A stretch of 47,091 bases of DNA from a virus (IMGVR_UViG_3300042691_037953:1-47091), one strand, 5' to 3'; counted from the first letter of the stretch, positions 2,984 to 14,644 are shown. A program made the numbers and translations. The notes: generated by a model not told the origin, from the sequence alone.

Positions 2984-2984
2984 A

Positions 2985-3350: not shown

Positions 3351-3365
3351 ATTTATGCAATACAT

Positions 3366-3441: not shown

Positions 3442-3471
3442 ATTTTCAAAGCAAGACTATTTAAGTATCAT

Positions 3472-3546: not shown

Positions 3547-3559
3547 ATTACGCAAGGAC

Positions 3560-3696: not shown

Positions 3697-3705
3697 ATGT
3701 TTTAT

Positions 3706-3779
3706 TGGGAAGTCGTCTAATGGCAGGACATCGCTCTTTGAAAGCGTGAATGTGAGTTCAATTCTTACCTTCCCAACCA
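3706..3779 (+). tRNA. tRNA-Gln(UUG)
   Basis: Acceptor TGGGAAG/CTTCCCA, anticodon loop CTTTGAA, encoded CCA. Confidence 0.9.
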
Positions 3780-3791
3780 ATTTGTTTTTAC

Positions 3792-3868
3792 GGTCCCGTA
3801 GTCTAGTTGGATCAGGCATCTGTCTTCTAAACAGAGTAACGTAGGTTCGAATCCTACCGGGATCGCCA
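3792..3868 (+). tRNA. tRNA-Arg(UCU)
   Basis: Acceptor GGTCCCG/CGGGATC, anticodon loop CTTCTAA between TCTGT/ACAGA, encoded CCA. Confidence 0.92.
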
Positions 3869-3879
3869 ATTTACTAAGT

Positions 3880-3909
3880 GTAATGGTTCCTTGTTTGCAA
3901 CGCCATTAC
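3880..3909 (+). other. Hairpin in tRNA spacer
   Basis: GTAATGG (3880-3886) pairs with CCATTAC (3903-3909). It sits in a 90-nt spacer between tRNA-Arg and tRNA-Ser and has no coding potential. Confidence 0.5.
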
Positions 3910-3958
3910 TGCCTGACTCCTAAGAAGGAATAATTTGGCATGGGGCTTTTTGTTTTGC

Positions 3959-4048
3959 AGAGGGTTGTGTGAGCGGTTGAAACAGTCAGTCTTGAAAACT
4001 GATATACCCTAACGGGTATCAAAGGTTCAAATCCTTTACCCTCTGCCA
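3959..4048 (+). tRNA. tRNA-Ser(UGA)
   Basis: Class II; acceptor AGAGGGT/ACCCTCT, anticodon TCAGT CTTGAAA ACTGA, long variable arm (ATACCCTAACGGGTAT), discriminator G and CCA. Confidence 0.92.
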
Positions 4049-4062
4049 CTAATTTCTAACAT

Positions 4063-4152
4063 GGGTGATTAGACCGTTAAAGTAGGCGGGTCAGTCTGTA
4101 AAACTGAAGTCCTTTGTGATCCGAGTAGGTGCAATTCCTTCATCACCCACCA
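4063..4152 (+). tRNA. tRNA-Tyr(GUA)
   Basis: Class II; acceptor GGGTGAT/ATCACCC, anticodon TCAGT CTGTAAA ACTGA, encoded CCA. Confidence 0.9.
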
Positions 4153-4174
4153 ATCTGCAATCAGGAGGCAACAA

Positions 4175-4354
4175 ATGAAGATCGTTCGTAATTCCGCTAA
4201 GTGCAAGAAGTGCCTTGTCGAAATCGAAAGCAAACATCGCCACGATTTTGTTTCTTGCAAGTGTGGTGAAATCTTTGTTGACGGTGGCAAAGAGTATTTC
4301 CGCCGTGGTGCGAAGGATCTCGAAAATATCGTTGATACCTCTGTTGTTTCGTAA
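4175..4354 (+). CDS. DUF7695-like zinc-binding mini-protein
   Basis: 59 aa, preceded by AGGAGG. Two Cys pairs, KCKKC near residue 10-13 and SCKCG near 28-31, plus ESKHRHDFVSC and VDGGKEYFRRG match a common phage zinc-ribbon family (DUF7695, as I recall it). It is embedded in the tRNA cluster and probably co-transcribed with it. Role unknown. Confidence 0.75.
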   Translation: MKIVRNSAKCKKCLVEIESKHRHDFVSCKCGEIFVDGGKEYFRRGAKDLENIVDTSVVS

Positions 4355-4364
4355 GTTGTAATTC

Positions 4365-4405
4365 GATGGGAATGTCTCCCATCCCTAACCGCTGGATATT
4401 CCAGC
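4365..4405 (+). promoter_or_regulatory. Paired leader hairpins upstream of 4422 gene
   Basis: GATGGGA-atgtc-TCCCATC (4365-4383) and GCTGG-atatt-CCAGC (4391-4405). Loop sequence and position just before the SD match leader hairpins at 5910, 13339, 14617, 15522, 18479, 19478, 19815 and 20677. Confidence 0.6.
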
Positions 4406-4421
4406 AGAGAGAAGTAAGCAA

Positions 4422-4619
4422 ATGAAGATCGCTAATTCGCTGTGGGCTGTGGTTGAGCGTTCGGATGCAGATGGTGGCAGTTTCGTGATGCGAGAGGAAG
4501 TTTTCACTACTCGCTCCGATGCTCGCAATTATCTTCGTGAGGTTAAGGCTAGCGGTTTTGCCCCTCGTCCCCGTTCGCTGTTTATCCGCCAGTTGCGCGT
4601 TACGAATAAGCGTGGCTAA
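4422..4619 (+). CDS. Small hypothetical protein in tRNA cluster
   Basis: 65 aa, basic: MKIANSLWAVVERSD then 'FTTRSDARNYLREVKASGF'. The pattern of a beta strand followed by a helix with Arg/Lys repeats is seen in small phage proteins of unknown role. GAGAGAAG provides the SD. Likely transcribed from the tRNA-cluster promoters. Confidence 0.65.
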   Translation: MKIANSLWAVVERSDADGGSFVMREEVFTTRSDARNYLREVKASGFAPRPRSLFIRQLRVTNKRG

Positions 4620-4641
4620 TTAGTTAGAACGGTTAGATATC

Positions 4642-4702
4642 GTTTGGGCTTTGGTGGTTGCGCCCGTGGGTTGTTCCATAAAGCAACCGCCCCAATTTTT
4701 AA
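4642..4702 (+). terminator. Possible terminator or attenuator
   Basis: GGTGGTTGC pairs with GCAACCGCC (loop about 22 nt), followed by AATTTTTAAG. Placed after the 4422 gene and before tRNA-Thr. The long loop makes it weak, and antitermination could pass it. Confidence 0.35.
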
Positions 4703-4778
4703 GCCTATTTAGCTCAGTTGGTAGAGCACGTCACTTGTAATGATGAGGTCGCCCGTTCGATTCGGGCAATAGGCTCCA
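4703..4778 (+). tRNA. tRNA-Thr(UGU)
   Basis: Acceptor GCCTATT/AATAGGC, D-arm AGCTCAGTTGGTAGAGC, anticodon loop CTTGTAA, encoded CCA. Confidence 0.92.
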
Positions 4779-4788
4779 ATTGTTGTAT

Positions 4789-4875
4789 GGGCGAATGGCG
4801 TAACAGGTAGCCGCGACAGACTCAAAATCTGTTTCCTGCAAAGGAGTGTCGGTTCGATTCCGACTTTGCCCACCA
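4789..4875 (+). tRNA. tRNA-Leu(CAA)
   Basis: Class II; acceptor GGGCGAA/TTTGCCC, anticodon loop CTCAAAA, encoded CCA. Confidence 0.92.
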
Positions 4876-4876
4876 A

Positions 4877-5009
4877 TCTACACTACAGCAATAAACACAA
4901 GGTCTGTGGTTTCCAAATCCGATGGAAATTATTGTTGAGCGAACTACAGGTTCTCTGGCATATCCTGTTGTAGAAAAAGCCAGAATCCTTTTTTGCAAAC
5001 TGGTGTAGA
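4877..5009 (+). ncRNA. Putative structured spacer RNA
   Basis: About 133 nt closed by TCTACAC (4877-4883) and GTGTAGA (5003-5009). Internal hairpins include TTTCC/GGAAA, CTACA/TGTAG and CTGGC/GCCAG. The closing 3' arm overlaps the tRNA-like element at 4995, so the two folds are alternatives. Confidence 0.35.
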
Positions 5010-5067
5010 TTAACGGAAAAGCGTTGCGGCAGCAAAGATGTGGGTTCAAATCCCATTGCCAGTTTGC
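4995..5067 (+). tRNA. Degenerate tRNA-like element
   Basis: Nine perfect acceptor-like pairs GCAAACTGG/CCAGTTTGC and a T-arm-like GTGGG TTCAAAT CCCAT. The anticodon arm is not canonical (TTGC GGCA GCAA), and the 3' end reads ATCC instead of NCCA. Probably a decayed tRNA or a tRNA mimic. Confidence 0.4.
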
Positions 5068-5114
5068 ATCCTTTCCCCTAATAGCCTCCTATTTACTTTA
5101 TGGAGGTAATAGCG

Positions 5115-5330
5115 ATGGCTAAAGCAAATCAAAAGGGAAAGGAGAGAGCAACAAAGAAAGATTCAGGAAGCAAGGCATTTATGATTAGCACAATTGTATT
5201 TGCTGTTCTTGTTTCTGGATGTGTCTCATATTTATTATGGGATAGAAGCAATTCACACCAATATGGTTGCATGGTTTTAGGAGTTGACCAAGTATCTGGA
5301 TTGGTTGGATTAGAATGTTACAAGAAATAA
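5115..5330 (+). CDS. Single-pass membrane protein
   Basis: 71 aa from ATG 5115, chosen because GGAGG sits at 5102-5106. A Lys-rich N-terminal tail (about 20 residues) is followed by a transmembrane segment (FMISTIVFAVLVSGCVSYLL) and a short C-terminal domain with two Cys (GCMVLG, LECYKK). Predicted N-in topology. Function unknown. Confidence 0.7.
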   Translation: MAKANQKGKERATKKDSGSKAFMISTIVFAVLVSGCVSYLLWDRSNSHQYGCMVLGVDQVSGLVGLECYKK

Positions 5331-5331
5331 C

Positions 5332-5511
5332 ATGAAGCTACCATATCCGCACGATAAAACGTATCATACCGAATTCATGGAATATGATGATTTCTATGCT
5401 GCGTATTATTGCAAAAAATGTGATTTCTGGTTAGAAGATAAGTGCGAAGATCCCCTTTGCCTATTCTGTAAACAAAGACCAGAGAAGCCGTCAAAAGTAT
5501 TTTATAGTTAG
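5332..5511 (+). CDS. Cys-rich mini-protein, copy 1
   Basis: 59 aa starting two bases after the previous stop. CKKCDFWLEDKCEDPLCLFC has three Cys pairs and likely binds zinc. It is clearly paralogous to the gene at 6271-6426 (CIDCDVWLENKC...CNFCPKRPDKPS). Function unknown. Confidence 0.65.
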   Translation: MKLPYPHDKTYHTEFMEYDDFYAAYYCKKCDFWLEDKCEDPLCLFCKQRPEKPSKVFYS

Positions 5512-5512
5512 C

Positions 5513-5709
5513 GTTTGGATAGGTGAATATCAAAGAGAGGTGTTCCCCGTTGCAGATGAACCCCTTTCCGCTGCAAGACCAACGGATAAAATATGAATCG
5601 CAACTAAGTCTGCAACCCGCGAAGAGAGGTTGCCCCGAAAAGATAATGGCTGTGGATTGGAAACCCATTGCGGGTTCTTTACCTACCCGCCTTCGTATTA
5701 TCTTCCAAA
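5513..5709 (+). ncRNA. Putative structured RNA before tRNA-Ile
   Basis: About 197 nt closed by GTTTGGA (start) and TCCAAAC (end). Internal hairpins are TTGCAG/CTGCAA (nested in CCGTTG/CAACGG), GCAACC/GGTTGC and GCGGGT/ACCCGC. No ORF with a start and SD. This is the most convincing of the three structured spacers in the cluster. Confidence 0.5.
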
Positions 5710-5719
5710 CACTATTTAT

Positions 5720-5794
5720 GGGATAGTAGTTTAATGGTAAAACAAAACCCTGATAAGGTTTAGAGCGCAGGTTCGATTCCTGCCTATCCCACCA
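5720..5794 (+). tRNA. tRNA-Ile(GAU)
   Basis: Acceptor GGGATAG/CTATCCC, anticodon AAACC CTGATAA GGTTT, encoded CCA. Last tRNA inside the inverted repeat. Confidence 0.92.
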
Positions 5795-5800
5795 ATTTTT

Positions 5801-5818
5801 ATATCACGGTGTTATTCA
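5801..5818 (+). repeat. Right arm of inverted repeat bracketing tRNA cluster
   Basis: ATATCACGGTGTTATTCA, exact reverse complement of 2985-3002, six bases after tRNA-Ile. Confidence 0.85.
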
Positions 5819-5872
5819 AATGCGGTTTCCAGCCGCCCGCAACTTAATTCCCCGCAACCGACAATTAAACCC

Positions 5873-5901
5873 TTGACACGCTGCCCCTGCCGTGGTAGTA
5901 T
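5873..5901 (+). promoter_or_regulatory. Promoter of the 5937 operon
   Basis: TTGACA, 17-bp spacer ending TGG, TAGTAT (5896-5901). The leader carries CGCTG-atggg-CAGCG (5910-5924) before the SD. Confidence 0.85.
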
Positions 5902-5909
5902 GGTATTAA

Positions 5910-5924
5910 CGCTGATGGGCAGCG
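5910..5924 (+). promoter_or_regulatory. AUGG-loop leader hairpin
   Basis: CGCTG-atggg-CAGCG directly before the GAGAGG SD of the 5937 gene; member of the leader-hairpin family. Confidence 0.6.
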
Positions 5925-5936
5925 AGAGGAAATATA

Positions 5937-6281
5937 ATGGCTAATATTTATATGATCCGCAGAAAGACCGATGGCAAGTATATTTGCGGAACCCCGCGAT
6001 ATCCTTGGTTTGTGGAAGATATCGGCAGAACCTTCTATAATATTAGGTCTGCACAGATTTGGTTAACAAGTTATCTTAATCGTTATAAGATCAAGACTTG
6101 GAAGAATGGGCGTTACCGATTCAACGCGGGAGAATTCTTTACTCCCAGCAACATTCTTATTGATTGCGAGATTGTTACTATTGAGGTAAAGCCTACAACG
6201 CTTAAGAGTGTTTTTGATTTCTCCGCTGAACTTGAAATGAAGAACAGCAAGAGGATAAAGAAGAAAAAGGATGCCGTGTAA
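5937..6281 (+). CDS. Hypothetical protein
   Basis: 114 aa, ATG with GAGAGG upstream. The N-terminal half (MANIYMIRRKTDGKY...FYNIRSAQIWLTSYL) looks like a small alpha/beta domain; the C-terminus is Lys-rich. First gene of a two-gene unit ending with tRNA-Ser. No family recognised. Confidence 0.65.
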   Translation: MANIYMIRRKTDGKYICGTPRYPWFVEDIGRTFYNIRSAQIWLTSYLNRYKIKTWKNGRYRFNAGEFFTPSNILIDCEIVTIEVKPTTLKSVFDFSAELEMKNSKRIKKKKDAV

Positions 6282-6426
6282 AAGTAATAGTCTGCACAGG
6301 ACAGACCATAATTATGAATACGATGCTTATTTCTGCATTGATTGTGATGTGTGGTTAGAAAACAAATGCGACGATCATCGTTGCAACTTTTGTCCAAAGC
6401 GTCCTGATAAGCCATCGCAAGTTTAG
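6271..6426 (+). CDS. Cys-rich mini-protein, copy 2
   Basis: 51 aa overlapping the previous gene by 11 bases. CIDCDVWLENKC and CNFCPKRPDKPSQV align with the 5332 gene. The final G of its TAG is also the first base of tRNA-Ser(GCU), so the coding and tRNA genes abut with zero spacing. Confidence 0.65.
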   Translation: MPCKSNSLHRTDHNYEYDAYFCIDCDVWLENKCDDHRCNFCPKRPDKPSQV

Positions 6427-6517
6427 GAAACGTGAGTGAGAGGCTTAAACTAGCGGTTTGCTAAACCGCCGTAGGTGTAACAATCTACCGAAGGTTCAAA
6501 TCCTTCCGTTTCCGCCA
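6426..6517 (+). tRNA. tRNA-Ser(GCU)
   Basis: Class II; acceptor GGAAACG/CGTTTCC, anticodon GCGGT TTGCTAA ACCGC, long variable arm, discriminator G, CCA. Outside the inverted-repeat bracket and driven by the 5873 promoter. Confidence 0.92.
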
Positions 6518-6521
6518 ATAA

Positions 6522-6557
6522 GCCAGTTGCCAATTCATTTTGGTAACTGGCTATTTT
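6522..6557 (+). terminator. Rho-independent terminator
   Basis: AGCCAGTTGCCA pairs with TGGTAACTGGCT (one mismatch), followed by ATTTTTTTG. Ends the 5937-tRNA-Ser unit immediately before the block A promoter. Confidence 0.85.
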
Positions 6558-6561
6558 TTTG

Positions 6562-6590
6562 TTGACTTTGAAGCCCGCTTGTGATAGGAT
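6562..6590 (+). promoter_or_regulatory. Block A promoter (leaderless)
   Basis: TTGACT, 17-bp spacer, TAGGAT (6585-6590). Only six bases separate the -10 from ATG 6597, so the transcript should start at or next to the A of the start codon. Confidence 0.8.
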
Positions 6591-6596
6591 AAAAGA

Positions 6597-6782
6597 ATGG
6601 AACCCAAGGTTGGACAGATTTGGCGTTGCAATTATGATAATGAAGAAAACTACATCTTCATAACTAAAATTACGAGCAATGGGCATAAAGTTGATTACTA
6701 TATCTTAAAAACTGGACAAACAACTTGGGATTACAAACAGCAATTTGAATTTAAGAAATGTTACGAACTGGTTAGTGGATAA
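6597..6782 (+). CDS. Block A SH3-like protein 1
   Basis: 61 aa: MEPKVGQIWRCNY...YIFITKI...VDYYIL...YELVSG. 'VGQIW' followed by three to four short strands is a small beta-barrel pattern. No SD is possible because ATG lies six bases after the -10; it is probably translated leaderless. The stop overlaps the next ATG by one base. Confidence 0.75.
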   Translation: MEPKVGQIWRCNYDNEENYIFITKITSNGHKVDYYILKTGQTTWDYKQQFEFKKCYELVSG

Positions 6783-7009
6783 TGCTTGGACATTATGTTG
6801 GTGATATGGTTATACGTTTTGATATGTCTACTGCAATTCACATTGTTGGAATAATCATAGAAGTACCAAAAAGACCAGAAGGGCTTTTCAAGGTTGGTTG
6901 GTCAGATGGTAGTTTTGGTGATTGTTATGGTTTGAAAGATATTAGACGAATGAAAAATGAAATTGAGGATTTGATGTATGGAATTACCAAAAGTTGGCGA
7001 TGTAGTTGA
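6782..7009 (+). CDS. Block A SH3-like protein 2
   Basis: 75 aa: VGDMVIRFD...HIVGIIIEVPK...FKVGWSDGSF. Closest within block A to the block B consensus (VGDLV / LGIITKI / YxVEW), so it may link the two sub-families. It overlaps the next gene by 32 bases. Confidence 0.75.
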   Translation: MLGHYVGDMVIRFDMSTAIHIVGIIIEVPKRPEGLFKVGWSDGSFGDCYGLKDIRRMKNEIEDLMYGITKSWRCS

Positions 7010-7178
7010 AAGATTAGATATGCCTTGGACTGATCATAGGTTTTATATAATCTTAGAAAATCCTTGTGAGCGTTGCTATAAAATAGTTAATGTGGTGACT
7101 GATGTAAAGTGGAATTGGAGTCTTGGTTGGGCAGATGATGCCGAGCAGGTATGGAAGCGTGAATGGCGGATCGTGTAA
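6978..7178 (+). CDS. Block A SH3-like protein 3
   Basis: 66 aa: MELPKVGDVVERLDM...FYIILENP...SLGWADDAEQVW. Begins inside the preceding gene (32-base overlap) and overlaps the next by 16 bases. Basic C-terminal tail (KREWRIV). Function unknown. Confidence 0.7.
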   Translation: MELPKVGDVVERLDMPWTDHRFYIILENPCERCYKIVNVVTDVKWNWSLGWADDAEQVWKREWRIV

Positions 7179-7360
7179 AAATCAAGATTGGGCAGATTTG
7201 GAAGTTTAAGCCAAGACCCAACGATGAACAGGATTATTTTGTATTGATCAATCGAATCACAGAACAGGTTATTGGATATCAGTATATCCATAAAGATAAG
7301 ACTGGTTGGTGTTTTGAACGAGACTTTCATAATACATATGATTTGGTGAGTGATGTATGA
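7163..7360 (+). CDS. Block A SH3-like protein 4
   Basis: 65 aa: IKIGQIWKFKPRPNDEQDYFVLINRI...YQYI...YDLVSDV. Shares the C-terminal LVSD/LVSG ending with its block A neighbours (proteins 1 and 5). ATGA overlap with the next gene. Confidence 0.75.
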   Translation: MADRVKIKIGQIWKFKPRPNDEQDYFVLINRITEQVIGYQYIHKDKTGWCFERDFHNTYDLVSDV

Positions 7361-7542
7361 GAATTCCAATTCCTGGTGAATTGTGGAAAGACGAGCATAA
7401 TAAAACCCTGCTTATAACAATGGTAAGGACAGACCATCCAGTAAGTCACGATTGGATTTTTTATTATATCGTTGACTATGATATAGATAGTAATTGTTCG
7501 CTTGCATCTTTCGTTAAATATTCAACGCTGGTGAGTGGATAA
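7357..7542 (+). CDS. Block A SH3-like protein 5
   Basis: 61 aa: MRIPIPGELWKDEHNKTLLITMVRTD...YYIVDYD...STLVSG. A divergent member in which PGELW replaces VGQIW. The stop TAA is directly followed by the next ATG. Confidence 0.7.
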   Translation: MRIPIPGELWKDEHNKTLLITMVRTDHPVSHDWIFYYIVDYDIDSNCSLASFVKYSTLVSG

Positions 7543-7764
7543 ATGGTTAAAGTAGGACAAGTCTGGAGAATATTAGAAACTAAATTGGATCTAAAAGGAG
7601 CCAATCCAGAAGATTATCTTATCGTTATCACAAAGATTTATAAAAAGAAAATGGTAGCAGATTTCTTTTATCTTGATGGTTATGATTCTGGAAGGGACGG
7701 AGAGGACGATATTAACATTCCTTGGCTTATCAAGAACGGACAATTGGAGAGTGATGTAAGATGA
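7543..7764 (+). CDS. Block A SH3-like protein 6
   Basis: 73 aa: MVKVGQVWRILE...DYLIVITKIYKKK...DFFYLDGYD. Last VGQ-type member before the unrelated MSGGHF gene, which it overlaps by ATGA. Confidence 0.75.
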   Translation: MVKVGQVWRILETKLDLKGANPEDYLIVITKIYKKKMVADFFYLDGYDSGRDGEDDINIPWLIKNGQLESDVR

Positions 7765-8033
7765 GTGGTGGACATTTCTGCGATAACAATTATATCTATT
7801 ACCGTGTGTTTCAATTCGCTGATGAACTTGAAAACGAAATCCAGAATAACAGAAAGCCAAATGATTATGGGTATTCACGAGATTTTAGTGATGAAACTCT
7901 TGTGATTTTAAAGGCAAAGGTCGAGCAGATGCGTAAAATCGCACAAGCAATGAGAGAGATTGATTATCTTTATTCTGGTGATCATGGCGAAGATAGTTTC
8001 TTGAAGATTATGAAGGAGCATGAAAATGAGTAA
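7761..8033 (+). CDS. MSGGHF-family phage protein
   Basis: 90 aa. MSGGHFCDNNYIYYRVFQFADELENEI is the signature N-terminus of a widespread phage and prophage hypothetical family (usually MSGGHFDY...). Predicted all-helical, acidic. Function unknown. Overlaps the preceding gene by 4 bases and the following gene by 8. Confidence 0.8.
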   Translation: MSGGHFCDNNYIYYRVFQFADELENEIQNNRKPNDYGYSRDFSDETLVILKAKVEQMRKIAQAMREIDYLYSGDHGEDSFLKIMKEHENE

Positions 8034-8280
8034 AGATTATGATAAGGGCTTCCAAGATGCCGTAAAGAAGGTTGGGGATCTTCTGCTTTCGGAGTTTAAA
8101 GCATACAAAAAGGAAATGAAAGGGTTTGTGAAAGATACTGATTATCTTTCTGCTTACGAAAACAAAGTTCGCATGGAAGATGCAGATTTTTATTTCCATG
8201 AAATTCGTAAGATGTTTGTAGAGAAAACCGATAGTGATAGCAATAAGACTTGTAGTTGCTTAATCTGTAAAGGAGACTAA
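8026..8280 (+). CDS. Helical hypothetical protein with C-terminal Cys cluster
   Basis: 84 aa from ATG 8026, chosen because AAGGAG ends about 8 bases upstream. A helical body (KGFQDAVKKVGDLLLSEFKAY) ends with CSCLICKGD, a possible metal-binding tail. An ATG at 8020 would add two residues. Function unknown. Confidence 0.65.
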   Translation: MSKDYDKGFQDAVKKVGDLLLSEFKAYKKEMKGFVKDTDYLSAYENKVRMEDADFYFHEIRKMFVEKTDSDSNKTCSCLICKGD

Positions 8281-8282
8281 AA

Positions 8283-8456
8283 ATGGGTTGCGCTAATTGT
8301 TGTTCGCAGGAAAAAGATGATGCTACAAGGCAAGTGATTAAGGCTATTAACCAGGATTTAGATGTATTAGAAACTGGAGCAGCGCCTGTTGGTGAATACC
8401 ACGGCAGGGATCTTCAGGATTTGCGTGAGAGACTGACAAAGTTATTTGGCAAGTAG
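8283..8456 (+). CDS. Small Cys-rich N-terminus helical protein
   Basis: 57 aa: MGCANCCSQEKDDATRQVIKAI..., starting two bases after the previous stop. The N-terminal CANCC may bind metal or be lipid-modified; the remainder is a predicted helix pair. Closes the block A transcript. AGGAG (in 'aaaggagac') serves as SD. Confidence 0.65.
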   Translation: MGCANCCSQEKDDATRQVIKAINQDLDVLETGAAPVGEYHGRDLQDLRERLTKLFGK

Positions 8457-8467
8457 CAAACAAGTTC

Positions 8468-8496
8468 TTGACTTCAAAGCCCACCTATGTTAGACT
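8468..8496 (+). promoter_or_regulatory. Block B promoter (leaderless)
   Basis: TTGACT, 17-bp spacer, TAGACT (8491-8496); ATG 8503 lies six bases downstream of the -10. The -35 region 'TTGACTTCAAAGCCC' resembles 'TTGACTTTGAAGCCC' at the block A promoter, suggesting the two promoters are duplicates. Confidence 0.8.
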
Positions 8497-8502
8497 GATC
8501 GT

Positions 8503-8727
8503 ATGGTCGAGCATAAGGTGGGCGAACTTGTTTTGATGGTTCTTAGGACTTATGAGAGAAGATACCAATACCTTGGAATTATCAAAAAGGTTGATGACGG
8601 AATAATGATTGGCACAAAAGCCTATTTTGTCGAATGGAACGACGGACAAGATAATTGGTATTCCTCAGAAAGTATCGAGGAAATGAAAAGTGACCTCTGG
8701 ACTTACTATGAATCACAAAATCGGTGA
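8503..8727 (+). CDS. Block B SH3-like protein 1
   Basis: 74 aa: MVEHKVGELVLMV...YLGIIKKVDD...YFVEWNDGQDNWYS, then a C-terminal helix ending ESQNR. Archetype of the block B family: N-terminal HKVGDLV strand, LGIITKI strand, YxVEW strand, C-terminal helix. Probably leaderless. Its last 20 bases also encode the next protein's start. Confidence 0.8.
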   Translation: MVEHKVGELVLMVLRTYERRYQYLGIIKKVDDGIMIGTKAYFVEWNDGQDNWYSSESIEEMKSDLWTYYESQNR

Positions 8728-8926
8728 TCTTATTTGGTCGCAATCTGCCCACGAAATTGCTATTATCGTTGGTTATTTTCCAAATGGTTTACATGGGTCG
8801 GCTAAATTCAAATATTCAGTTTGCCATAGTTCAACTGGCAATAGGTTCTTTTACACAGAAGAAATGATTGAAGAAGGTAAGAGACATTTAGAGGCTTTCT
8901 ATGAACGCGAAGCATCAAATCGGTGA
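8708..8926 (+). CDS. Block B SH3-like protein 2
   Basis: 72 aa: MNHKIGDLIWSQ...IAIIVGYF...YSVCHSS...EEMIEEGKRHLEAFY. I chose ATG 8708 by alignment with the other copies. Overlaps its predecessor by 20 bases and successor by 26, both in the same relative frame. Confidence 0.8.
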   Translation: MNHKIGDLIWSQSAHEIAIIVGYFPNGLHGSAKFKYSVCHSSTGNRFFYTEEMIEEGKRHLEAFYEREASNR

Positions 8927-9131
8927 TCCTGTATTTTGGCTGAAAGATGGAGTGTTTGGTTATGTTTCCGATATCAATTACGATAAAAAGTTAGACGAAA
9001 CATTTTATGTAATCACTTGGTTTCTTTCCGAAGAAATTGAATCCTCTTGGTTGGAAGAACAATTTGTTGATGAATCCAAGCGGGATCTACAAATTTATCT
9101 TGGTGAGATTCCACCAACGCAGGTTAGGTAA
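8901..9131 (+). CDS. Block B SH3-like protein 3
   Basis: 76 aa: MNAKHQIGDPVFWLKDGVFGYVSDI...YVITWFLSEE. GDPV replaces GDLV. Directly followed by TAAATG, one of the two junctions lacking the long overlap. Confidence 0.75.
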   Translation: MNAKHQIGDPVFWLKDGVFGYVSDINYDKKLDETFYVITWFLSEEIESSWLEEQFVDESKRDLQIYLGEIPPTQVR

Positions 9132-9341
9132 ATGCACCAAGTAGGCGACCCTGTGTATAGCAATTCATTTGGTCTTGGTTATATTTCCAAGATTGAAGAT
9201 ACGATTCTATACAGGAAGCATCACGTTATGTGGATGGGCGAAGCCGCTGGTTGGTACGCAGATGGTAGATGGTACGAAAGCAAAGGTATTGACACTCTCA
9301 AGATGTTCCTGCGAATGAAATTGCGCGGTGAAGATATATGA
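9132..9341 (+). CDS. Block B SH3-like protein 4
   Basis: 69 aa: MHQVGDPVYSNSFGLGYISKIED...HHVMWMGEAAGWYADG. ATGA overlap with the next member. Shares the GDPV variant with copy 3, suggesting these two are sister duplicates. Confidence 0.75.
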   Translation: MHQVGDPVYSNSFGLGYISKIEDTILYRKHHVMWMGEAAGWYADGRWYESKGIDTLKMFLRMKLRGEDI

Positions 9342-9589
9342 AACATAAAGTTGGTGATCTTGTTTATTACAAAGCAAACAAGAGAGTATTCGCAGAAGAA
9401 AACCAACCTTCAATTGGCATTATAACCAAGTGCTTTCCAAGGAAAGATACTTATTGGATTGAATGGTTGAATGACAACGATGTGCTTTATCAGAAATTAG
9501 TAATGACAGAGTTTTCTGGTCAGGCTATTGGTTGGTTTAAAAGAGATTTGCAAGAGGTATTAGGGAATGACGGAACACAAAATCGGTGA
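9338..9589 (+). CDS. Block B SH3-like protein 5
   Basis: 83 aa: MKHKVGDLVYYKANKR...SIGIITKCFPRKDTYWIEWLNDND, C-terminal GTQNR. Overlaps the next member by 23 bases. Confidence 0.8.
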   Translation: MKHKVGDLVYYKANKRVFAEENQPSIGIITKCFPRKDTYWIEWLNDNDVLYQKLVMTEFSGQAIGWFKRDLQEVLGNDGTQNR

Positions 9590-9797
9590 TCTTGTTTACC
9601 AGCTTGATGGCAAAAGCATTGGCATCATCACAAAGATCACGGATGATGATAAGGAGAGTTTGCCTCGTTACCGAATGATTTATATCATTGAATATGCAAA
9701 TGGCAAAACTGGTCGTCATTCCGCTGCCGTCATTGATGGTATGAAAAGCAATCTACAAAACCATTTAAGGAAAGAAAATGGATCACAAAGTCGGTGA
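9567..9797 (+). CDS. Block B SH3-like protein 6
   Basis: 76 aa: MTEHKIGDLVYQLDGKSIGIITKITDDD...YIIEYANGKTGRH, ending SQSR. Overlaps the next member by 20 bases. Confidence 0.8.
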   Translation: MTEHKIGDLVYQLDGKSIGIITKITDDDKESLPRYRMIYIIEYANGKTGRHSAAVIDGMKSNLQNHLRKENGSQSR

Positions 9798-9993
9798 TTT
9801 GATATATGATGATATCAGCGAAGCTATTGGAGTCATAAAGCGAATCCGTGAAGATGAAGAAAATGGAATACTCTATGATGTGGAATGGAGTAGCGGAGAA
9901 GCATCAACGGGCATTCACGGACTTACATCGGAATCAATTGACTATCTCAAGGATTTGCTAAATGCAGAACTCAAAAGGAATCAACGTCGGTGA
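9778..9993 (+). CDS. Block B SH3-like protein 7
   Basis: 71 aa: MDHKVGDLIYDDISEAIGVIKRI...LYDVEWSSGEASTG, C-terminal helix ELKRNQRR. A possible SD (AAGGAAAG) precedes ATG. Overlaps the next gene by 32 bases, the longest overlap in block B. Confidence 0.8.
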   Translation: MDHKVGDLIYDDISEAIGVIKRIREDEENGILYDVEWSSGEASTGIHGLTSESIDYLKDLLNAELKRNQRR

Positions 9994-10207
9994 TATTGTG
10001 ATGGCAAACGATTGGGATGATAACACCAATCAGCCATTTGAAGCAATTGGTATCATCTCTGCAAAGTACCGAAAGGATGGTGCGGGCAACAGATGGTTTT
10101 ATAGAATTGATTGGGCAGATGGTGGAGGAATGGCAGAATATGCAACCGAATTCGTTGAAGGATACAGAAAGAAGTATAGGAACTATGTCCGAACACAACA
10201 TCGGTGA
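9962..10207 (+). CDS. Block B SH3-like protein 8
   Basis: 81 aa: MQNSKGINVGDIVMANDWDDN...AIGIISAKYRKDG...YRIDWADGGGM. Longer N-terminus than its siblings. Overlaps the next member by 23 bases. Confidence 0.78.
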   Translation: MQNSKGINVGDIVMANDWDDNTNQPFEAIGIISAKYRKDGAGNRWFYRIDWADGGGMAEYATEFVEGYRKKYRNYVRTQHR

Positions 10208-10379
10208 TTTGGTCTACTACAGAAATATTGGCTTGGGGATGATAATAAAAGAAAATCCTAATAGGCAGTTCTGCCGATACGAAGTTATGTGGATCAACGA
10301 TCAAGAAGTGTATACATACGATGAAACACAGATCCGACAGTTAAAGGAAATCCTAAATGAGCAATCACAACGTTGGTGA
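10185..10379 (+). CDS. Block B SH3-like protein 9
   Basis: 64 aa: MSEHNIGDLVYYRNIGLGMIIKENPNRQ...YEVMWINDQEV. ATG 10185 is preferred over upstream starts because alignment with siblings begins there and the upstream extension would run deep in another frame of copy 8. Confidence 0.78.
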   Translation: MSEHNIGDLVYYRNIGLGMIIKENPNRQFCRYEVMWINDQEVYTYDETQIRQLKEILNEQSQRW

Positions 10380-10554
10380 TCTTGTTCTTGCTGGTAGTTT
10401 AGGGATCATAACAAAGATAGATAGGGATTTCCGTGTTAACTGGTATCACGTTGAATGGTGTTCCGAAGGAAATGAAGCCATCAGAAGTGCGTTTCAGGAT
10501 AATGAGATCTCGTATTTTAAAGAGGCGCTAAATCGTGAATCACAAAGTAGGTGA
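10357..10554 (+). CDS. Block B SH3-like protein 10
   Basis: 65 aa: MSNHNVGDLVLAGSLGIITKIDRDF...YHVEWCSEGNEA, ending RESQSR. One of the shortest members, showing the minimal core. Confidence 0.8.
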   Translation: MSNHNVGDLVLAGSLGIITKIDRDFRVNWYHVEWCSEGNEAIRSAFQDNEISYFKEALNRESQSR

Positions 10555-10777
10555 TCTGGTATATTATGATAGGCACGGATTAGGGATCATAACAAAGATA
10601 CGAAGCATCACAGAAGTAAAAGATATGGTAGATGCAAGCCTAAGAGGATATCTCAATGAATGTCCATACCAAGTTGAATGGGTGGGCAATGGTGGGATGA
10701 TTCAGCATTTTACCGAGCAAGAGATAACTGGATTAAAAGTCCAACTGGATACATATGAGCAAGCATCAAGTAGGTGA
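10535..10777 (+). CDS. Block B SH3-like protein 11
   Basis: 80 aa: MNHKVGDLVYYDRHGLGIITKIRSITEV...YQVEWVGNGG. The DNA 'TTAGGGATCATAACAAAGATA' region is nearly shared with copy 10, indicating recent duplication or gene conversion. Confidence 0.8.
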   Translation: MNHKVGDLVYYDRHGLGIITKIRSITEVKDMVDASLRGYLNECPYQVEWVGNGGMIQHFTEQEITGLKVQLDTYEQASSR

Positions 10778-10976
10778 TCTTGTATTAGTTGCACATCCCA
10801 AATTTAGTGAAGTTCTTGGGATCATCCAGAAAAAGAAAAGGGATGGCATATATGATGTTTATTGGCTAAATCCAATCTTAGAAGAAGATATCTCAATCGA
10901 AAGTGATGAATCAATAAAGGTATACAAGAAACACCTACAGGAATATATGGATGAACATAGAACACAAAGTAGGTGA
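10755..10976 (+). CDS. Block B SH3-like protein 12
   Basis: 73 aa: MSKHQVGDLVLVAHPKFSEVLGIIQKKKRDGIYDVYWLNP, C-terminal helix ending HRTQSR. Overlaps the next member by 26 bases. Confidence 0.8.
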   Translation: MSKHQVGDLVLVAHPKFSEVLGIIQKKKRDGIYDVYWLNPILEEDISIESDESIKVYKKHLQEYMDEHRTQSR

Positions 10977-11181
10977 TCTTGTGTTGGGTTATTTCTATTC
11001 CTATGGTGGAGAGCAGGAAAAAGAAAATCTTGGGATAATAATAAAGGTTGACGAACCTGGACTCTATTTGGTAGAATGGATTGGTAGAGATCAATATATC
11101 AAACAATGGTATGATCGTAAAGGCATCGTAATCTATACAAACGCATATGAGAGAGCATATGGGAATACCTACAGATCATAA
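10951..11181 (+). CDS. Block B SH3-like protein 13
   Basis: 76 aa: MNIEHKVGDLVLGYFYSYGG...LGIIIKVDEPGLYLVEWIGRDQY. The N-terminus IEHKVGDLV matches copy 15 (IEHKIGDMV). Confidence 0.8.
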   Translation: MNIEHKVGDLVLGYFYSYGGEQEKENLGIIIKVDEPGLYLVEWIGRDQYIKQWYDRKGIVIYTNAYERAYGNTYRS

Positions 11182-11383
11182 GGTTGGCGAACTGGTTTAT
11201 GACAGGATCCGAAATGATCTTGGAGTGATAACAAAGATAATCCATAAACCATTATATGAGTGTTGGGTAGATTGGTGCAAGGGATTACCAAAAGCATATA
11301 ACTACTATTCGATTACGGTATACAAGAAAATCTTGCAGGAGTCACTAGAAAATAAAAATGAGCATAGAACACAAAATAGGTGA
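11159..11383 (+). CDS. Block B SH3-like protein 14
   Basis: 74 aa from ATG 11159 (MGIPTDHKVGELVYD...LGVITKIIHKPLYECWVDWCKG). An in-frame ATG at 11147 would add four residues; 11159 has GAGAGAG upstream and gives the usual overlap (23 bases). Ends EHRTQNR. Confidence 0.72.
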   Translation: MGIPTDHKVGELVYDRIRNDLGVITKIIHKPLYECWVDWCKGLPKAYNYYSITVYKKILQESLENKNEHRTQNR

Positions 11384-11585
11384 TATGGTTTATTACCATT
11401 TCGTTCATCGCTCTTATAGTGGCTTTGATGATCCAAACTTGGGAATAATAGTAGCAGTAGAAACGGATCTCTATACAAGATACAAAGTCAAGTGGATAAA
11501 TAGAGAAGGTTTCAATTATTATCTAGCAGATGAAATCCTGCATCTAAAGAATATGTTTGAGGTTGTGGCAAATGTCAAATCATAA
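11358..11585 (+). CDS. Block B SH3-like protein 15
   Basis: 75 aa: MSIEHKIGDMVYYHFVHRSYSGFDDPNLGIIVAVETD...YKVKWINREG. Overlaps the last member by 14 bases. Confidence 0.8.
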   Translation: MSIEHKIGDMVYYHFVHRSYSGFDDPNLGIIVAVETDLYTRYKVKWINREGFNYYLADEILHLKNMFEVVANVKS

Positions 11586-11787
11586 GATTGGTGATCTGGT
11601 GATGGGCGTCAATATGGATGATGACCATATCCTTGGCGTGATCAAAAAGAAAAAGTTATCCTATAATGATTTGACCTATCAGGTTGAATGGGCAAACGAT
11701 TTGCATTGTGACCAATGGTATAAAGAAACCAATGTTAATGCATTCAAGATGACGTTTGATGAATATATGAGGGAAAAAGCGGAATAG
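11572..11787 (+). CDS. Block B SH3-like protein 16 (last)
   Basis: 71 aa: MSNHKIGDLVMGVNMDDDHILGVIKKKKLSYNDLTYQVEWANDLH. Lacks the RTQNR-like tail, as expected for the array end: no following gene constrains its C-terminus. Confidence 0.8.
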   Translation: MSNHKIGDLVMGVNMDDDHILGVIKKKKLSYNDLTYQVEWANDLHCDQWYKETNVNAFKMTFDEYMREKAE

Positions 11788-11889
11788 ACACACAAGGGGG
11801 ATTAATGGTGGAGTGTGTATGTTGTATAGCGCGGTATAGAGTATAATAGGATTGATGCAGCGGATACAGCGGGGAGTGGTATTTCCGCC

Positions 11890-11919
11890 ATTATACCACA
11901 ATATATAGTGGTGTGTCAA
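11890..11919 (-). promoter_or_regulatory. Minus-strand promoter facing block B
   Basis: On the minus strand TTGACA (11914-11919), 18-bp spacer ending TGG, perfect TATAAT (11890-11895). It would produce RNA antisense to the end of the block B array. Confidence 0.65.
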
Positions 11920-11962
11920 TGGGCATCGCTAAACCCCCGTAAATACAGGCTAAAAAAGGTGC

Positions 11963-11991
11963 TTGACAGGGCACCGATCCTGTGGTAGGAT
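11963..11991 (+). promoter_or_regulatory. Leaderless promoter of 11998 gene
   Basis: TTGACA, 17-bp spacer ending TGG, TAGGAT (11986-11991); ATG 11998 six bases downstream. GGTGC/GCACC flank the -35. Confidence 0.82.
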
Positions 11992-11997
11992 GGTACT

Positions 11998-12336
11998 ATG
12001 ATGAGAGAATGCACGGAATGTGGTGGCGAGTTTGATCCGCGAAGCAAGGCAAAGCGGATCGTTGGTGGTTTGTCAACCCATTGCCCCGATTGTTCGGAGG
12101 AAACCGAGGTTCGCTATTTCGGTACAAGTGCAGGAGAGGGCAAACAAGCATCGGTGCAAGTGCTAAAGTTCAATTCCCAAGAGGATAGGGATAAGTATGC
12201 AAAGTATTGGCGTGCAAGTTCAGGACTGAATACGGGTAAGCAATGCCAAATGGCATTCCGTGCTAATGAGGTAGCGGTATCCTTCCAGACCCGTGCCACC
12301 TTTACGGGTAATACAAATCATAAGGGGAAGGCGTAA
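11998..12336 (+). CDS. Zinc-ribbon hypothetical protein
   Basis: 112 aa. MMRECTECGGEFDPRSKAK...STHCPDCSE is a classic N-terminal CxxC...CxxC zinc ribbon. The C-terminal half (QVLKFNSQEDRDKYAKYWRASSG) is basic and could bind nucleic acid. Probably leaderless (ATG six bases after the -10). Function unknown. Confidence 0.72.
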   Translation: MMRECTECGGEFDPRSKAKRIVGGLSTHCPDCSEETEVRYFGTSAGEGKQASVQVLKFNSQEDRDKYAKYWRASSGLNTGKQCQMAFRANEVAVSFQTRATFTGNTNHKGKA

Positions 12337-12400
12337 TCCCATATACTCCCAGGGTGGGGGGGGTCTGCGGTTTAAGATAAAAAGGGTACATATAAATTAA

Positions 12401-12472
12401 CCAGCCGCCTGATAAGGCGGAATAGGGATAATACCTATATAGCAATAACCCAATTCCCCCTGCGGGGGCTGG
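12401..12472 (+). ncRNA. Structured element E1
   Basis: Outer stem CCAGCC (12401-12406)/GGCTGG (12467-12472) encloses three hairpins: GCC-tgataa-GGC, ATAGG-gataata-CCTAT and CCCC-ctgc-GGGG. The GGATAATACC hairpin and the layout recur in E2 (14477-14549). A G-rich tract (GGTGGGGGGGGTCT) lies upstream of E1 and a similar one precedes E2. Confidence 0.5.
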
Positions 12473-12474
12473 GC

Positions 12475-12503
12475 TTGACAAGATTAAGGGGTACTGGTAT
12501 AGT
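12475..12503 (+). promoter_or_regulatory. Promoter of Arg-rich peptide gene
   Basis: TTGACA, 17-bp spacer ending TGG, TATAGT (12498-12503), two bases after element E1. Confidence 0.85.
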
Positions 12504-12527
12504 ACTACCATAGGAGGGAGGTGCCAT

Positions 12528-12617
12528 ATGCCACATCCACACAAGAATCGTCCGCGAAAGGGTCGTCGTAAGATTGGAAGTAAGAAGCGTCGTAGCCGTA
12601 ATATGAGAAAGCGGTAG
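12528..12617 (+). CDS. 29-residue Arg/Lys-rich peptide
   Basis: Fifteen of 29 residues are Arg or Lys plus two His (MPHPHKNRPRKGRRKIGSKK...). It has a dedicated near-consensus promoter and a strong SD (AGGAGGGAGG), so high expression is expected. Composition resembles tiny ribosomal proteins such as Thx or a nucleic-acid-binding peptide; no homology is claimed. Confidence 0.65.
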   Translation: MPHPHKNRPRKGRRKIGSKKRRSRNMRKR

Positions 12618-12639
12618 CAAATGGGAGCGAATCTTGTGC

Positions 12640-12668
12640 TTGACACGGGGTTCGCTCCCTGCTATACT
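12640..12668 (+). promoter_or_regulatory. Leaderless promoter inside a palindrome
   Basis: TTGACA, 17-bp spacer, TATACT (12663-12668); ATG 12675 six bases downstream. GGGAGCGAA (12623-12631) and TTCGCTCCC (12651-12659) form a 9-bp inverted repeat around the -35. Confidence 0.8.
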
Positions 12669-12674
12669 GTGTCT

Positions 12675-12923
12675 ATGGTGCAATGGAACAGCGATGCGTG
12701 GGATTGCAAAGTAGGCGATATTATTGTTGAGTCAATAAAAGGTCAAGACCCAAGTTATTGGGTTGTATCAAAAGTAAAACTAAATGATAACCCAATACGT
12801 TATGGGCATACATACAAAAAAATGTATGATGTGTTTAACCTGGGGAATGATATGAATTGTTTATATAATGTTATGTTCCGAGATTCAGATACAATAACAT
12901 ATAGGATCATCCGTGGACAATAG
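12675..12923 (+). CDS. VGD-type small protein
   Basis: 82 aa from ATG 12675, six bases after the -10: CKVGDIIVESIKGQDPSYWVVSKVKL...YDVFNLGNDMN. A relative of the SH3-like array proteins outside the array. Overlaps the next gene by 11 bases, with the same frame offset (2 mod 3) as block B junctions. Confidence 0.7.
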   Translation: MVQWNSDAWDCKVGDIIVESIKGQDPSYWVVSKVKLNDNPIRYGHTYKKMYDVFNLGNDMNCLYNVMFRDSDTITYRIIRGQ

Positions 12924-13119
12924 ATTCCGCATCGGAGATCTTGTGCAATACCACATCGAACCAACCATATTGAAGTATCGCAGAGTTATGCAAAACAAGG
13001 TTGGTGTTATTACTGCTATTAGAGATAAGTCAAATGTAGCATATATCAAATGGTCCGATTTGGATGCAAATGATTCATGGGTTTCATATGATGATTTGAG
13101 ACTTCTAAACCGAGAATAG
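12913..13119 (+). CDS. SH3-like small protein
   Basis: 68 aa, GTG or in-frame start region at 12913: FRIGDLVQYH...NKVGVITAIRDKSNVAYIKWSDLDAND. Clear match to the block B core (GDLV / VGVIT / YIKW). Forms a two-gene mini-array with 12675. Confidence 0.72.
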   Translation: MDNRFRIGDLVQYHIEPTILKYRRVMQNKVGVITAIRDKSNVAYIKWSDLDANDSWVSYDDLRLLNRE

Positions 13120-13207
13120 AATATATGCTCTCGCGCTAGAGTAACAAGCGGCAACGCGAACGAAATAGTTCTACAAATAACATATAGAATCTCGGGTAAA
13201 CAGAACC

Positions 13208-13237
13208 ATGTTATCACAAACCCGCCGCCGCTGTCAA
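13208..13237 (-). promoter_or_regulatory. Minus-strand promoter
   Basis: Minus strand TTGACA (13232-13237), 18-bp spacer with TG before the -10, TAACAT (13208-13213). Faces left, toward the 3' end of the 12913 gene. Confidence 0.5.
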
Positions 13238-13287
13238 GCGAAAAAAGCACCGCGTAAGCCCTGGATATCACAAGCGAAAAATAAAAC

Positions 13288-13316
13288 TTGCGTCGGGAAC
13301 GGTTTTCGTGTAGACT
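13288..13316 (+). promoter_or_regulatory. Promoter of GP88-like gene
   Basis: TTGCGT, 17-bp spacer, TAGACT (13311-13316). Leader hairpin GGGC-atggt-GCCC at 13339-13351. Confidence 0.7.
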
Positions 13317-13338
13317 GTTCCTTGTACGGTGGACGTGC

Positions 13339-13351
13339 GGGCATGGTGCCC
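13339..13351 (+). promoter_or_regulatory. AUGGU-loop leader hairpin
   Basis: GGGC-atggt-GCCC in the leader of the GP88-like gene. Confidence 0.55.
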
Positions 13352-13375
13352 AAAGCCACCCGATAGGTGAAAGCG

Positions 13376-14041
13376 ATGGCTAAGGCATTTAACATTAAGT
13401 GGACTAAGGGCAACGAGAAGCTGCAAAAGGATAATGGTGGTACTTATAACATTATCGGTTTCGGTATTCCCGCTGATTATGATTTCCAGCACAACGGGGA
13501 AACCGTGAATACCTGCCCTTCCGCGCTTGCTTGCCGTGCGGTTTGCTATGCAAAGCAGGGTCGTTATGCTATGCCTAACGTGATTGCTGCAAGGCAGCAC
13601 AACCTCGAAATGTCGCAGAATCCTTATTTCGTGGATTTCGTGGTTGCTGATTTGGAGCGTATGCGAAAGGTTAATACGGTTCGCATCCACGATTCGGGTG
13701 ATTTCTACGATCAGGAGTATTACGATAAGTGGTGTGCTATTGCCACGATGCTCCCCGAAATCACGTTCTACGCTTATACTAAGACCGTTAATATGGATCT
13801 TTGGTCGCATAAGCCTGATAACCTTAAGATCACGCAATCGCTTGGTGGCAAGCACGACGAAAACGTGAATCTGGATATGCCCCATTCGCGTATCTTTGCA
13901 ACCCACGAGGATCGCGTCAATGCTGGATATGTTGACGGTAACGTGAACGACGTCCCTGCGATTGAGGGTTTGGTGCAAATCGGCTTGGTGTATCACGGGC
14001 AGCGTAAGTTGACGGATTCGCAGAAGCGTTATTTCGCTTAA
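13376..14041 (+). CDS. GP88-like phage protein
   Basis: 222 aa from ATG 13376 (AGGTGA upstream). Contains 'TCPSALACRAVCYAKQGRYAMPNV' split by conserved Cys, 'VRIHDSGDFYDQEYYDKW', and 'FYAYTKTVN', matching the phage family Pfam GP88 ('gene product 88') as I recall it. The Cys cluster suggests metal or Fe-S binding. Enzymatic role not established. First of a three-gene operon. Confidence 0.72.
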   Translation: MAKAFNIKWTKGNEKLQKDNGGTYNIIGFGIPADYDFQHNGETVNTCPSALACRAVCYAKQGRYAMPNVIAARQHNLEMSQNPYFVDFVVADLERMRKVNTVRIHDSGDFYDQEYYDKWCAIATMLPEITFYAYTKTVNMDLWSHKPDNLKITQSLGGKHDENVNLDMPHSRIFATHEDRVNAGYVDGNVNDVPAIEGLVQIGLVYHGQRKLTDSQKRYFA

Positions 14042-14060
14042 GGGGAAAGGGGAAAAGCAG

Positions 14061-14240
14061 ATGAGCAATTGTAGTTTCCACAATAAGTACGATGGTTCGT
14101 TTTGGGTGAATGATGCAAGGGGCATTCCGCTCGCGCGCGTTTGCGCCAAGTGTGCCGATAAGAAACTTGCAAAGTATCGCAAGGATGTTATCACTAATCC
14201 TAACTATTCCGCCGATGAGAATATCGAGGAGAACTATTAA
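14061..14240 (+). CDS. Conserved small phage protein
   Basis: 59 aa. 'GSFWVNDARGIPLARVCAKCADKKLAKYR' with one CxxC; I recognise the DARGIPL...C..C...KLxKYR pattern from many phages, where it is unannotated. Likely a small zinc-binding protein. TAATG overlap with the next gene. Confidence 0.7.
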   Translation: MSNCSFHNKYDGSFWVNDARGIPLARVCAKCADKKLAKYRKDVITNPNYSADENIEENY

Positions 14241-14419
14241 TGGCAAGGACAAAGAAGGATCGGAAGGCAAAGCATATTGACCCCAATGCGATTAAGACCC
14301 GTGATTGGTGTATGGTGCTAATCATTAATGGTGCTACCAAGGCAGGGGTTATTCCTGATAGGCGGAAGGCACGGAATAAGTATCGGTGCCGTAATAGTAG
14401 GAACGGGGAGTGGGACTAG
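14240..14419 (+). CDS. Small basic hypothetical protein
   Basis: 59 aa: MARTKKDRKAKHIDPNAIKTRDW...IPDRRKARNKYRC. Arg/Lys-rich throughout with one central hydrophobic stretch, consistent with RNA or DNA binding. Its start overlaps the preceding stop. Confidence 0.65.
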   Translation: MARTKKDRKAKHIDPNAIKTRDWCMVLIINGATKAGVIPDRRKARNKYRCRNSRNGEWD

Positions 14420-14476
14420 GGGATATACTAATAGGGTGGGGGGGTCTCGAATAATGTATTACAGGTAAAGAGATAT

Positions 14477-14549
14477 CAGCCGCCCTTTAGGGCTAATACC
14501 AATGGGATAATACCCCCCTAATAGGTATATGCCCAAATGCGGGCGGCTG
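14477..14549 (+). ncRNA. Structured element E2
   Basis: Outer 9-bp stem CAGCCGCCC (14477-14485)/GGGCGGCTG (14541-14549), inner hairpins with GGGATAATACCC (14504-14515) and GCCC/GGGC pairs. Second copy of the E1 architecture; it sits 30 bases before a promoter, as E1 does (2 bases). Confidence 0.5.
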
Positions 14550-14578
14550 ACACCCTAAAGATAGAGCAAAGAAAAAGG

Positions 14579-14607
14579 TTGACGGCATCCCGTGTCCGTG
14601 GTAGACT
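14579..14607 (+). promoter_or_regulatory. Promoter of DUF7249-like gene
   Basis: TTGACG, 17-bp spacer ending TGG, TAGACT (14602-14607), preceded by an A-tract (possible UP element). Confidence 0.82.
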
Positions 14608-14616
14608 GTCTTTAAT

Positions 14617-14631
14617 GCTGGATGGTCCAGC
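14617..14631 (+). promoter_or_regulatory. AUGGU-loop leader hairpin
   Basis: GCTGG-atggt-CCAGC just before the AGAGG SD. An in-frame ATG at 14615, seven bases after the -10, could start a 10-residue N-terminal extension. Confidence 0.6.
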
Positions 14632-14644
14632 GAAGAGGCAAGCG

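Follow-up and report, generated by a model that had tools for sequence, protein, structure and literature searches.

Two tandem blocks of SH3-like mini-genes with a stop/start joint in an uncultured bacterial virus: a possible exchangeable repertoire of binding proteins

The window considered here is the whole of an uncultured bacterial virus record of 47,091 bases (IMGVR_UViG_3300042691_037953:1-47091), along which all coordinates are counted. It carries an array of 22 small open reading frames (ORFs), all on the plus strand and all with intact frames, which form block A with six genes (6597-7764; 61-75 amino acids, aa) and block B with sixteen genes (8503-11787; 64-83 aa). An earlier reading made from the DNA alone (the sequence-only reading) had listed 22 mini-genes of one orientation, and each of them was found in its place, with start sites revised for B2 (8708), B9 (10185), and B16 (11572). 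The uninterrupted tandem run which it described holds within each block, but three unrelated genes (7761, 8020, and 8283) lie between the two, and its picture of block A as six “VGQIW” genes suits A1, A4, and A6, which are of the VGQ[IV]W type (IGQIW in A4), but not A2, A3, and A5. In the following list the overlaps in nucleotides (nt) are those with the preceding gene, the left-out E is the expect value given to a copy by a profile from which this copy was excluded, and the ratio of nonsynonymous to synonymous rates (dN/dS) refers to the comparison with a close relative, contig L003.

6597-6782, plus strand: A1, 61 aa, VGQIW; left-out E 4e-9
6782-7009, plus strand: A2, 75 aa, VGDMV; resembles block B, whose profiles give it E 2e-8 to 1e-5
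6978-7178, plus strand: A3, 66 aa, VGDVV; assigned by motif and position only
7163-7360, plus strand: A4, 65 aa, IGQIW; AlphaFold2 predicted local distance difference test (pLDDT) 90.1; dN/dS 0.18
7357-7542, plus strand: A5, 61 aa, PGELW; orthologue in L003, dN/dS 0.19
7543-7764, plus strand: A6, 73 aa, VGQVW; left-out E 5e-4; dN/dS 0.04
8503-8727, plus strand: B1, 74 aa; left-out E 1.5e-15; all 7 of 7 differences from L003 at third positions
8708-8926, plus strand: B2, 72 aa; 20-nt overlap, TGA joint
8901-9131, plus strand: B3, 76 aa; 26-nt overlap, TGA joint; body missing in the close relative
9132-9341, plus strand: B4, 69 aa; abuts B3, without joint
9338-9589, plus strand: B5, 83 aa; 4-nt overlap
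9567-9797, plus strand: B6, 76 aa; 23-nt overlap, TGA joint
9778-9993, plus strand: B7, 71 aa; 20-nt overlap, TGA joint
9962-10207, plus strand: B8, 81 aa; 32-nt overlap, TGA joint; body missing in the close relative
10185-10379, plus strand: B9, 64 aa; 23-nt overlap, TGA joint; window only
10357-10554, plus strand: B10, 65 aa; 23-nt overlap, TGA joint; AlphaFold2 pLDDT 91.8; left-out E 7e-17
10535-10777, plus strand: B11, 80 aa; 20-nt overlap, TGA joint; window only; weak match to CarD RID
10755-10976, plus strand: B12, 73 aa; 23-nt overlap, TGA joint
10951-11181, plus strand: B13, 76 aa; 26-nt overlap, TGA joint; window only
11147-11383, plus strand: B14, 78 aa; 35-nt overlap, upstream stop TAA in His-Lys codons; window only
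11358-11585, plus strand: B15, 75 aa; 26-nt overlap, TGA joint; window only
11572-11787, plus strand: B16, 71 aa; 14-nt overlap; left-out E 4e-19

The stop/start joint between neighbouring genes and the mosaicism at the level of whole cassettes are the strongest features of the array, and neither was noted in the sequence-only reading. Thirteen of the 15 block B junctions overlap by 14-35 nt, while B4-B5 overlaps by 4 nt and B3-B4 abuts. At 11 of the 15 the upstream stop is a TGA within GG-TGA-T, the Gly-Asp codons of the V/I-G-D motif of the next gene, so that the C-terminal “(S/T)Q(N/S)R” of one protein and the “HK(V/I)G” of the next are the same DNA in two frames; the stop of B13 differs, being a TAA inside the His-Lys codons of B14. 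If cassettes are separated and rejoined at the VGD motif, both frames therefore remain intact and the next start stays in place. Apart from the stop, the motif is only weakly conserved as DNA within the window: its codon identity is 0.52 versus 0.45 elsewhere and falls to 0.48 once the Gly codon is removed. The use of GGT for Gly in all joint-bearing genes is a partly circular observation, since GGT creates the stop; at joint-free junctions this codon is GGC or GGT.

The mosaicism became visible in the close relative (L003, also designated G001; a contig of 78.8 kb), where the same locus holds 4+12 genes against 6+16 in the window, so that copy number varies among related phages. In the tree nine block B orthologue pairs stand in the same order in both phages (B1, B2, B4, B5, B6, B7, B10, B12, and B16), seven copies belong to the window only (B3, B8, B9, B11, B13, B14, and B15), and three to the relative only (LB8, LB9, and LB12); the deeper forks do not separate. 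Two genes of the relative are chimeras that change parent within the motif: LB3 corresponds to B3 up to the GDPV codons and to B4 beyond them, and LB7 to B8 up to the VGD codons and to B10 beyond them. Synonymous divergence between the phages is uneven, from 6% to 47% of conserved codons changed (chi-squared 72.7, 11 degrees of freedom, p 4e-11), and differs even between the neighbours B1 and B2 (Fisher p 0.001), as would be expected if single cassettes had been exchanged between lineages. The shared copies are under purifying selection, with a pooled dN/dS of 0.19 and 0-0.29 per copy; because nonsynonymous change is low in each of them, they are considered to be translated, constrained genes.

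Family membership was evaluated with leave-one-out profiles against all six-frame ORFs of the window. All sixteen block B copies were recovered by the profile of the other fifteen (E 5e-7 to 4e-19), which places the family far beyond chance. In block A the profiles recovered A1, A4, and A6, whereas A2 grouped with block B by its scores, and neither A3 nor A5 was recovered (E 3-4); the membership of the latter two rests on position and motif and, for A5, also on its conservation in the close relative. The block B paralogues are only 19-39% identical to the first copy, and their split is older than the parting of the two phages, which agrees with the proposed expansion followed by diversification. 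Two relatives were found outside the array:

12913-13119, plus strand: isolated relative, 68 aa; with block B profiles, E 3e-6 to 1e-4
25687-25908, plus strand: 73 aa, isolated and weakly related to block A; E 5e-4 to 0.015

Thus, of eight isolated relatives named in the sequence-only reading, 12913 and, weakly, 25687 were retained, 18512 and 14887 are marginal, 2084 fails the profile test, and 12675, 20385, and 23717 were never among the profile matches listed.

Related arrays were reached through a gene next to the locus and through the DNA of the joint itself.

11998-12336, plus strand: zinc-ribbon-like marker gene, adjacent to the array on its downstream side

Eight other viral contigs contain relatives of this marker gene, and in five of them (G001, G002, G003, G007, and G008) SH3-like mini-gene arrays related to the one described here are present; in L012, L013, and L014 no array lies close to the marker relative, nor was there any match to the profiles. 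In G002 (L010; 162 kb) seven VGDIW-type genes lie directly upstream of the marker gene, several of their junctions being four-base ATGA overlaps, and a pair is located elsewhere, while G003 (77 kb) has one run of six mini-genes and one pair. G007 and G008 (L035 and L036) contain runs of three to four “KVGDLV...EVISEGR”-type genes with 14-nt overlaps, and the stretches examined show six joints each with the TGA in the VGD codons.

The joint pattern GAGGTNNTNAGTGAARGTNGGTGAY was then scanned over the contigs of 84,980 bacterial and archaeal genomes, where nine stretches matched; by a hand calculation with equal base use, its approximately 20 specified bases give an expectation of about 0.5 matches in 257 Gb. 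In L041 there are seven VGD genes, with 14-nt overlaps at five junctions in succession; L043 has three such genes in a row, and L047 and L049 have two each; the joints of L041, as well as those of G007 and G008, also carry a GAGGT Shine-Dalgarno sequence. L041, L043, L044, L047, and L049, all with joint-bearing VGD mini-gene sets, are contigs binned into bacterial metagenome-assembled genomes (MAGs); some contigs of this kind look phage-derived and others may not be. The full block B alignment was too variable for a locus scan, and a six-copy subset used instead found only the close relative among viral contigs and nothing in genome contigs, while the DNA motif CAYMAARTHGGTGATYTNGTNYWY returned the close relative and four contigs without arrays. 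When eight array proteins from different phages were compared by tblastn with 50,697 annotated phage records, the sole match had E 0.7. A distant DNA search matched solely the unrelated gene 7761, in cyanophage S-SRM01, where the run of small genes near the match contains no VGD-type array.

Each block has its own sigma-70-type promoter sequence upstream, with an ATG exactly 6 nt after the -10 element.

6562-6590, plus strand: block A promoter, TTGACT-17-TAGGAT; ATG of A1 6 nt past the -10
8468-8496, plus strand: block B promoter, TTGACT-17-TAGACT; ATG of B1 6 nt past the -10

With this spacing the expected transcription start falls at or near the A of the ATG, and the A1 and B1 transcripts are probably leaderless. 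Within the blocks, a Shine-Dalgarno match of at least 4 bases accompanies 16 of the 20 internal starts, in comparison with 32% of the other ATG/GTG in the region. Since the promoters are of the host sigma-70 type, early transcription is probable.

Strict promoters of the form TTGACn-17-TAnnnT are dense in this genome, with 16 on the plus strand in 5600-21600 versus a mean of 0.2 in first-order simulation; those on the plus strand range over 2706-20636 and include 6562, 8468, 11963, 12640, 16321, and others. Six of the strict promoters have an ATG exactly 6 nt after the -10, a number of cases that was 0 in 200 simulations, which suggests that leaderless genes are systematic in this phage. The promoters at 2895, 15379, 15476, 19435, and 19768 are followed by a GTAAGGTY element, without ATG at +6, and those on the minus strand at 20288, 19274, 18094, and 16269 (region 16241-20288) each by a similar (A/G)CCAGCC; similar strict promoters are present in contigs L009 and L010.

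AlphaFold2 models based on family alignments predicted a confident barrel for one representative of each gene type, namely, A4 and B10, the latter with four strands and a C-terminal helix, in line with the SH3-like fold proposed initially. The notion of diverged copies with a kept core was also borne out: in block B the N-terminal motif and strands 1-3 show 37-61% pairwise identity, as against 8-10% in three loops, which are 3-15, 2-18, and 5-11 residues long, strand 4 (13%) and the helix (21%) being variable too. The hits to PDB folds are consistently SH3-like, though weak with E above 0.05: block B gave NSD2 PWWP1, UvrD Tudor, chromo, and an entry of UvrD with an RNA polymerase lobe, and block A gave NdhS, NusG KOW, Ssl0352, and Spt5 KOW. 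Membership among the SH3-like β-barrels is supported at the fold level only. The best sequence match of the block B profile is NSD3 PWWP1 (E 8.9e-6 over 58 profile positions), but the Pfam PWWP model matched no block B member and the block B consensus lacks the PWWP motif, the segment aligned to it being variable loop 1. B11 matched CarD_TRCF_RID (PF02559; E 2.8e-4, 21.3 bits, below the gathering cutoff of 23), and no other block B member did. The search of both blocks against PHROG gave nothing below E 0.03, the best NCBIfam match of array members was at E 0.016 and not significant, and no defence or anti-defence annotation was attached to the array proteins by the family searches made. A PADLOC match of one member to a reverse transcriptase model (E 0.0046) was taken as noise.

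According to these data, on balance it is somewhat probable that the tandem SH3-like mini-gene operons represent a set of exchangeable binders for host takeover or counter-defence. The array would consist of two adjacent operons of SH3-like (Tudor/PWWP/KOW-like) mini-genes, read from host-type sigma-70 promoters and probably early, in which the joint supplies the start codon and motif of one gene together with the stop codon of the preceding one. Related phages have acquired, dropped, and fused cassettes, the switches lying at the VGD motif, and recombination through the joint would be the route; coupled translation at the onset of infection would yield small predicted barrels with a conserved core and hypervariable loops, and each loop set may bind a different host factor, such as a defence protein, RNA polymerase, or nucleic acid. 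A further proposal, put forward more tentatively, is an integrase-free cassette system spread over several uncultured phage lineages, where the bifunctional joint would let phages add, drop, or swap loop-variable binders by recombination with the operon unbroken and so remain evolvable against variable host factors.

The weakest part of this explanation is the step from predicted fold to putative function, and several observations weigh against it. Loop variability alone does not show diversification of binding because loops vary in any old family; no positive selection was found between the orthologues of the window and the relative; SH3-like barrels also bind nucleic acids or have structural roles; and every Foldseek match has E above 0.01. 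The chimeras number only two, both from metagenome assemblies, and the G002 and G003 arrays use other joints, mostly short overlaps.

CarD/TRCF RID and the UvrD C-terminal Tudor domain bind RNA polymerase, and the block B proteins are similar to them in the G-D-x-V motif and barrel, but the Pfam match concerns one array copy and lies below the cutoff. The barrels might be transcription modulators that attach to the RNA polymerase of the host or to nucleic acid, with a different effect on transcription for every copy. This alternative was kept because folds of this kind also occur in CarD RID, UvrD Tudor, and NusG KOW and because of the sub-threshold RID match of B11; it is nevertheless unlikely, since the fold matches, the UvrD, NusG, and Spt5 entries among them, are weak and come from all over the SH3-like fold space, a PWWP domain is the closest match by sequence, and sixteen different regulators in a single operon would be unusual. 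Largely neutral or selfish build-up, with the joint promoting duplication and exchange of proteins of little or redundant function, fits the high copy turnover and the recurrent joint sequence; the low dN/dS and the intact frames in all copies make it a still less probable account.

Phages are known to amplify small counter-defence genes in tandem, as described for T4 tifA (PMC9391042), which shares an operon with another small inhibitor, and for SegB-driven amplification (PMC13096335), in both cases via short homologies. As in such gene accordions, the array consists of tandem copies of small phage genes whose number varies among relatives, and many copies could raise the amount of one inhibitor. 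A recent amplification of this kind would leave near-identical copies, yet here they are strongly diverged, their loops differ, and their split predates the divergence of the phages, so the dosage explanation was rejected as very improbable; the present array is rather an operon of old, overlapping genes with turnover by cassette gain, loss, and fusion. That the array is an assembly artefact of a metagenomic repeat is hardly credible: although the source is an uncultured fragment and MAG contigs may be misbinned, the copies have only short identical runs in common, and an independent contig keeps nine of them in order with mostly synonymous changes.

As for other systems with comparable features, tandem amplification of small phage genes and small SH3-like phage proteins are already known. 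The latter, uncharacterised entries of BFVD, resemble the array products in size and fold (best template modelling score 0.70), the matches being weak with E 0.018 at best. Integron gene cassettes are likewise exchangeable genes joined by a recurrent sequence, whereas in the array the joining sequence is itself coding; neither an attC-like site nor a dedicated integrase turned up, although no search was aimed at these. The array products share the VGDLV start, SH3-like barrel, and C-terminal helix with PWWP and Tudor/chromo-like domains (for the bacterial chromo-like superfamily, see PMC5906684), but they are stand-alone phage proteins of 61-83 aa. No published description of long diverged arrays with a stop-in-VGD joint was found in the literature searched, which excluded most subscription journals.

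Phage early regions are rich in small genes of unassigned role, and an in-frame exchangeable array would be a concrete route by which phages could rapidly diversify host-interaction proteins. The joint also serves as a DNA signature for finding arrays in unannotated data and has already yielded the array of seven genes in L041 as well as several smaller sets. Cassettes with different partners would constitute a natural library of scaffolded binders, should this prove to be the case.

The surroundings of the array include thirteen tRNA genes just upstream (3019-6517), among which an ARAGORN call of a transfer-messenger RNA (tmRNA) at 4783-5371 is doubtful as it overlaps a tRNA, and a phage-borne tmRNA at 32655-32944 with the tag VNDDVEFESYALAA. 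The gene at 7761-8033 between the blocks shows 61% identity to a hypothetical protein of cyanophage S-SRM01, and by PhoH the nearest phages are distant. The guanine-cytosine content is about 0.46-0.51 at 12001-22000 versus 0.30-0.44 elsewhere, and this region is possibly a separate module. All-against-all blastp also revealed a paralogous pair of about 110-117 aa at 15577-15930 and 19862-20194 (NDRGCPKGV... and NARGCPKGV...).

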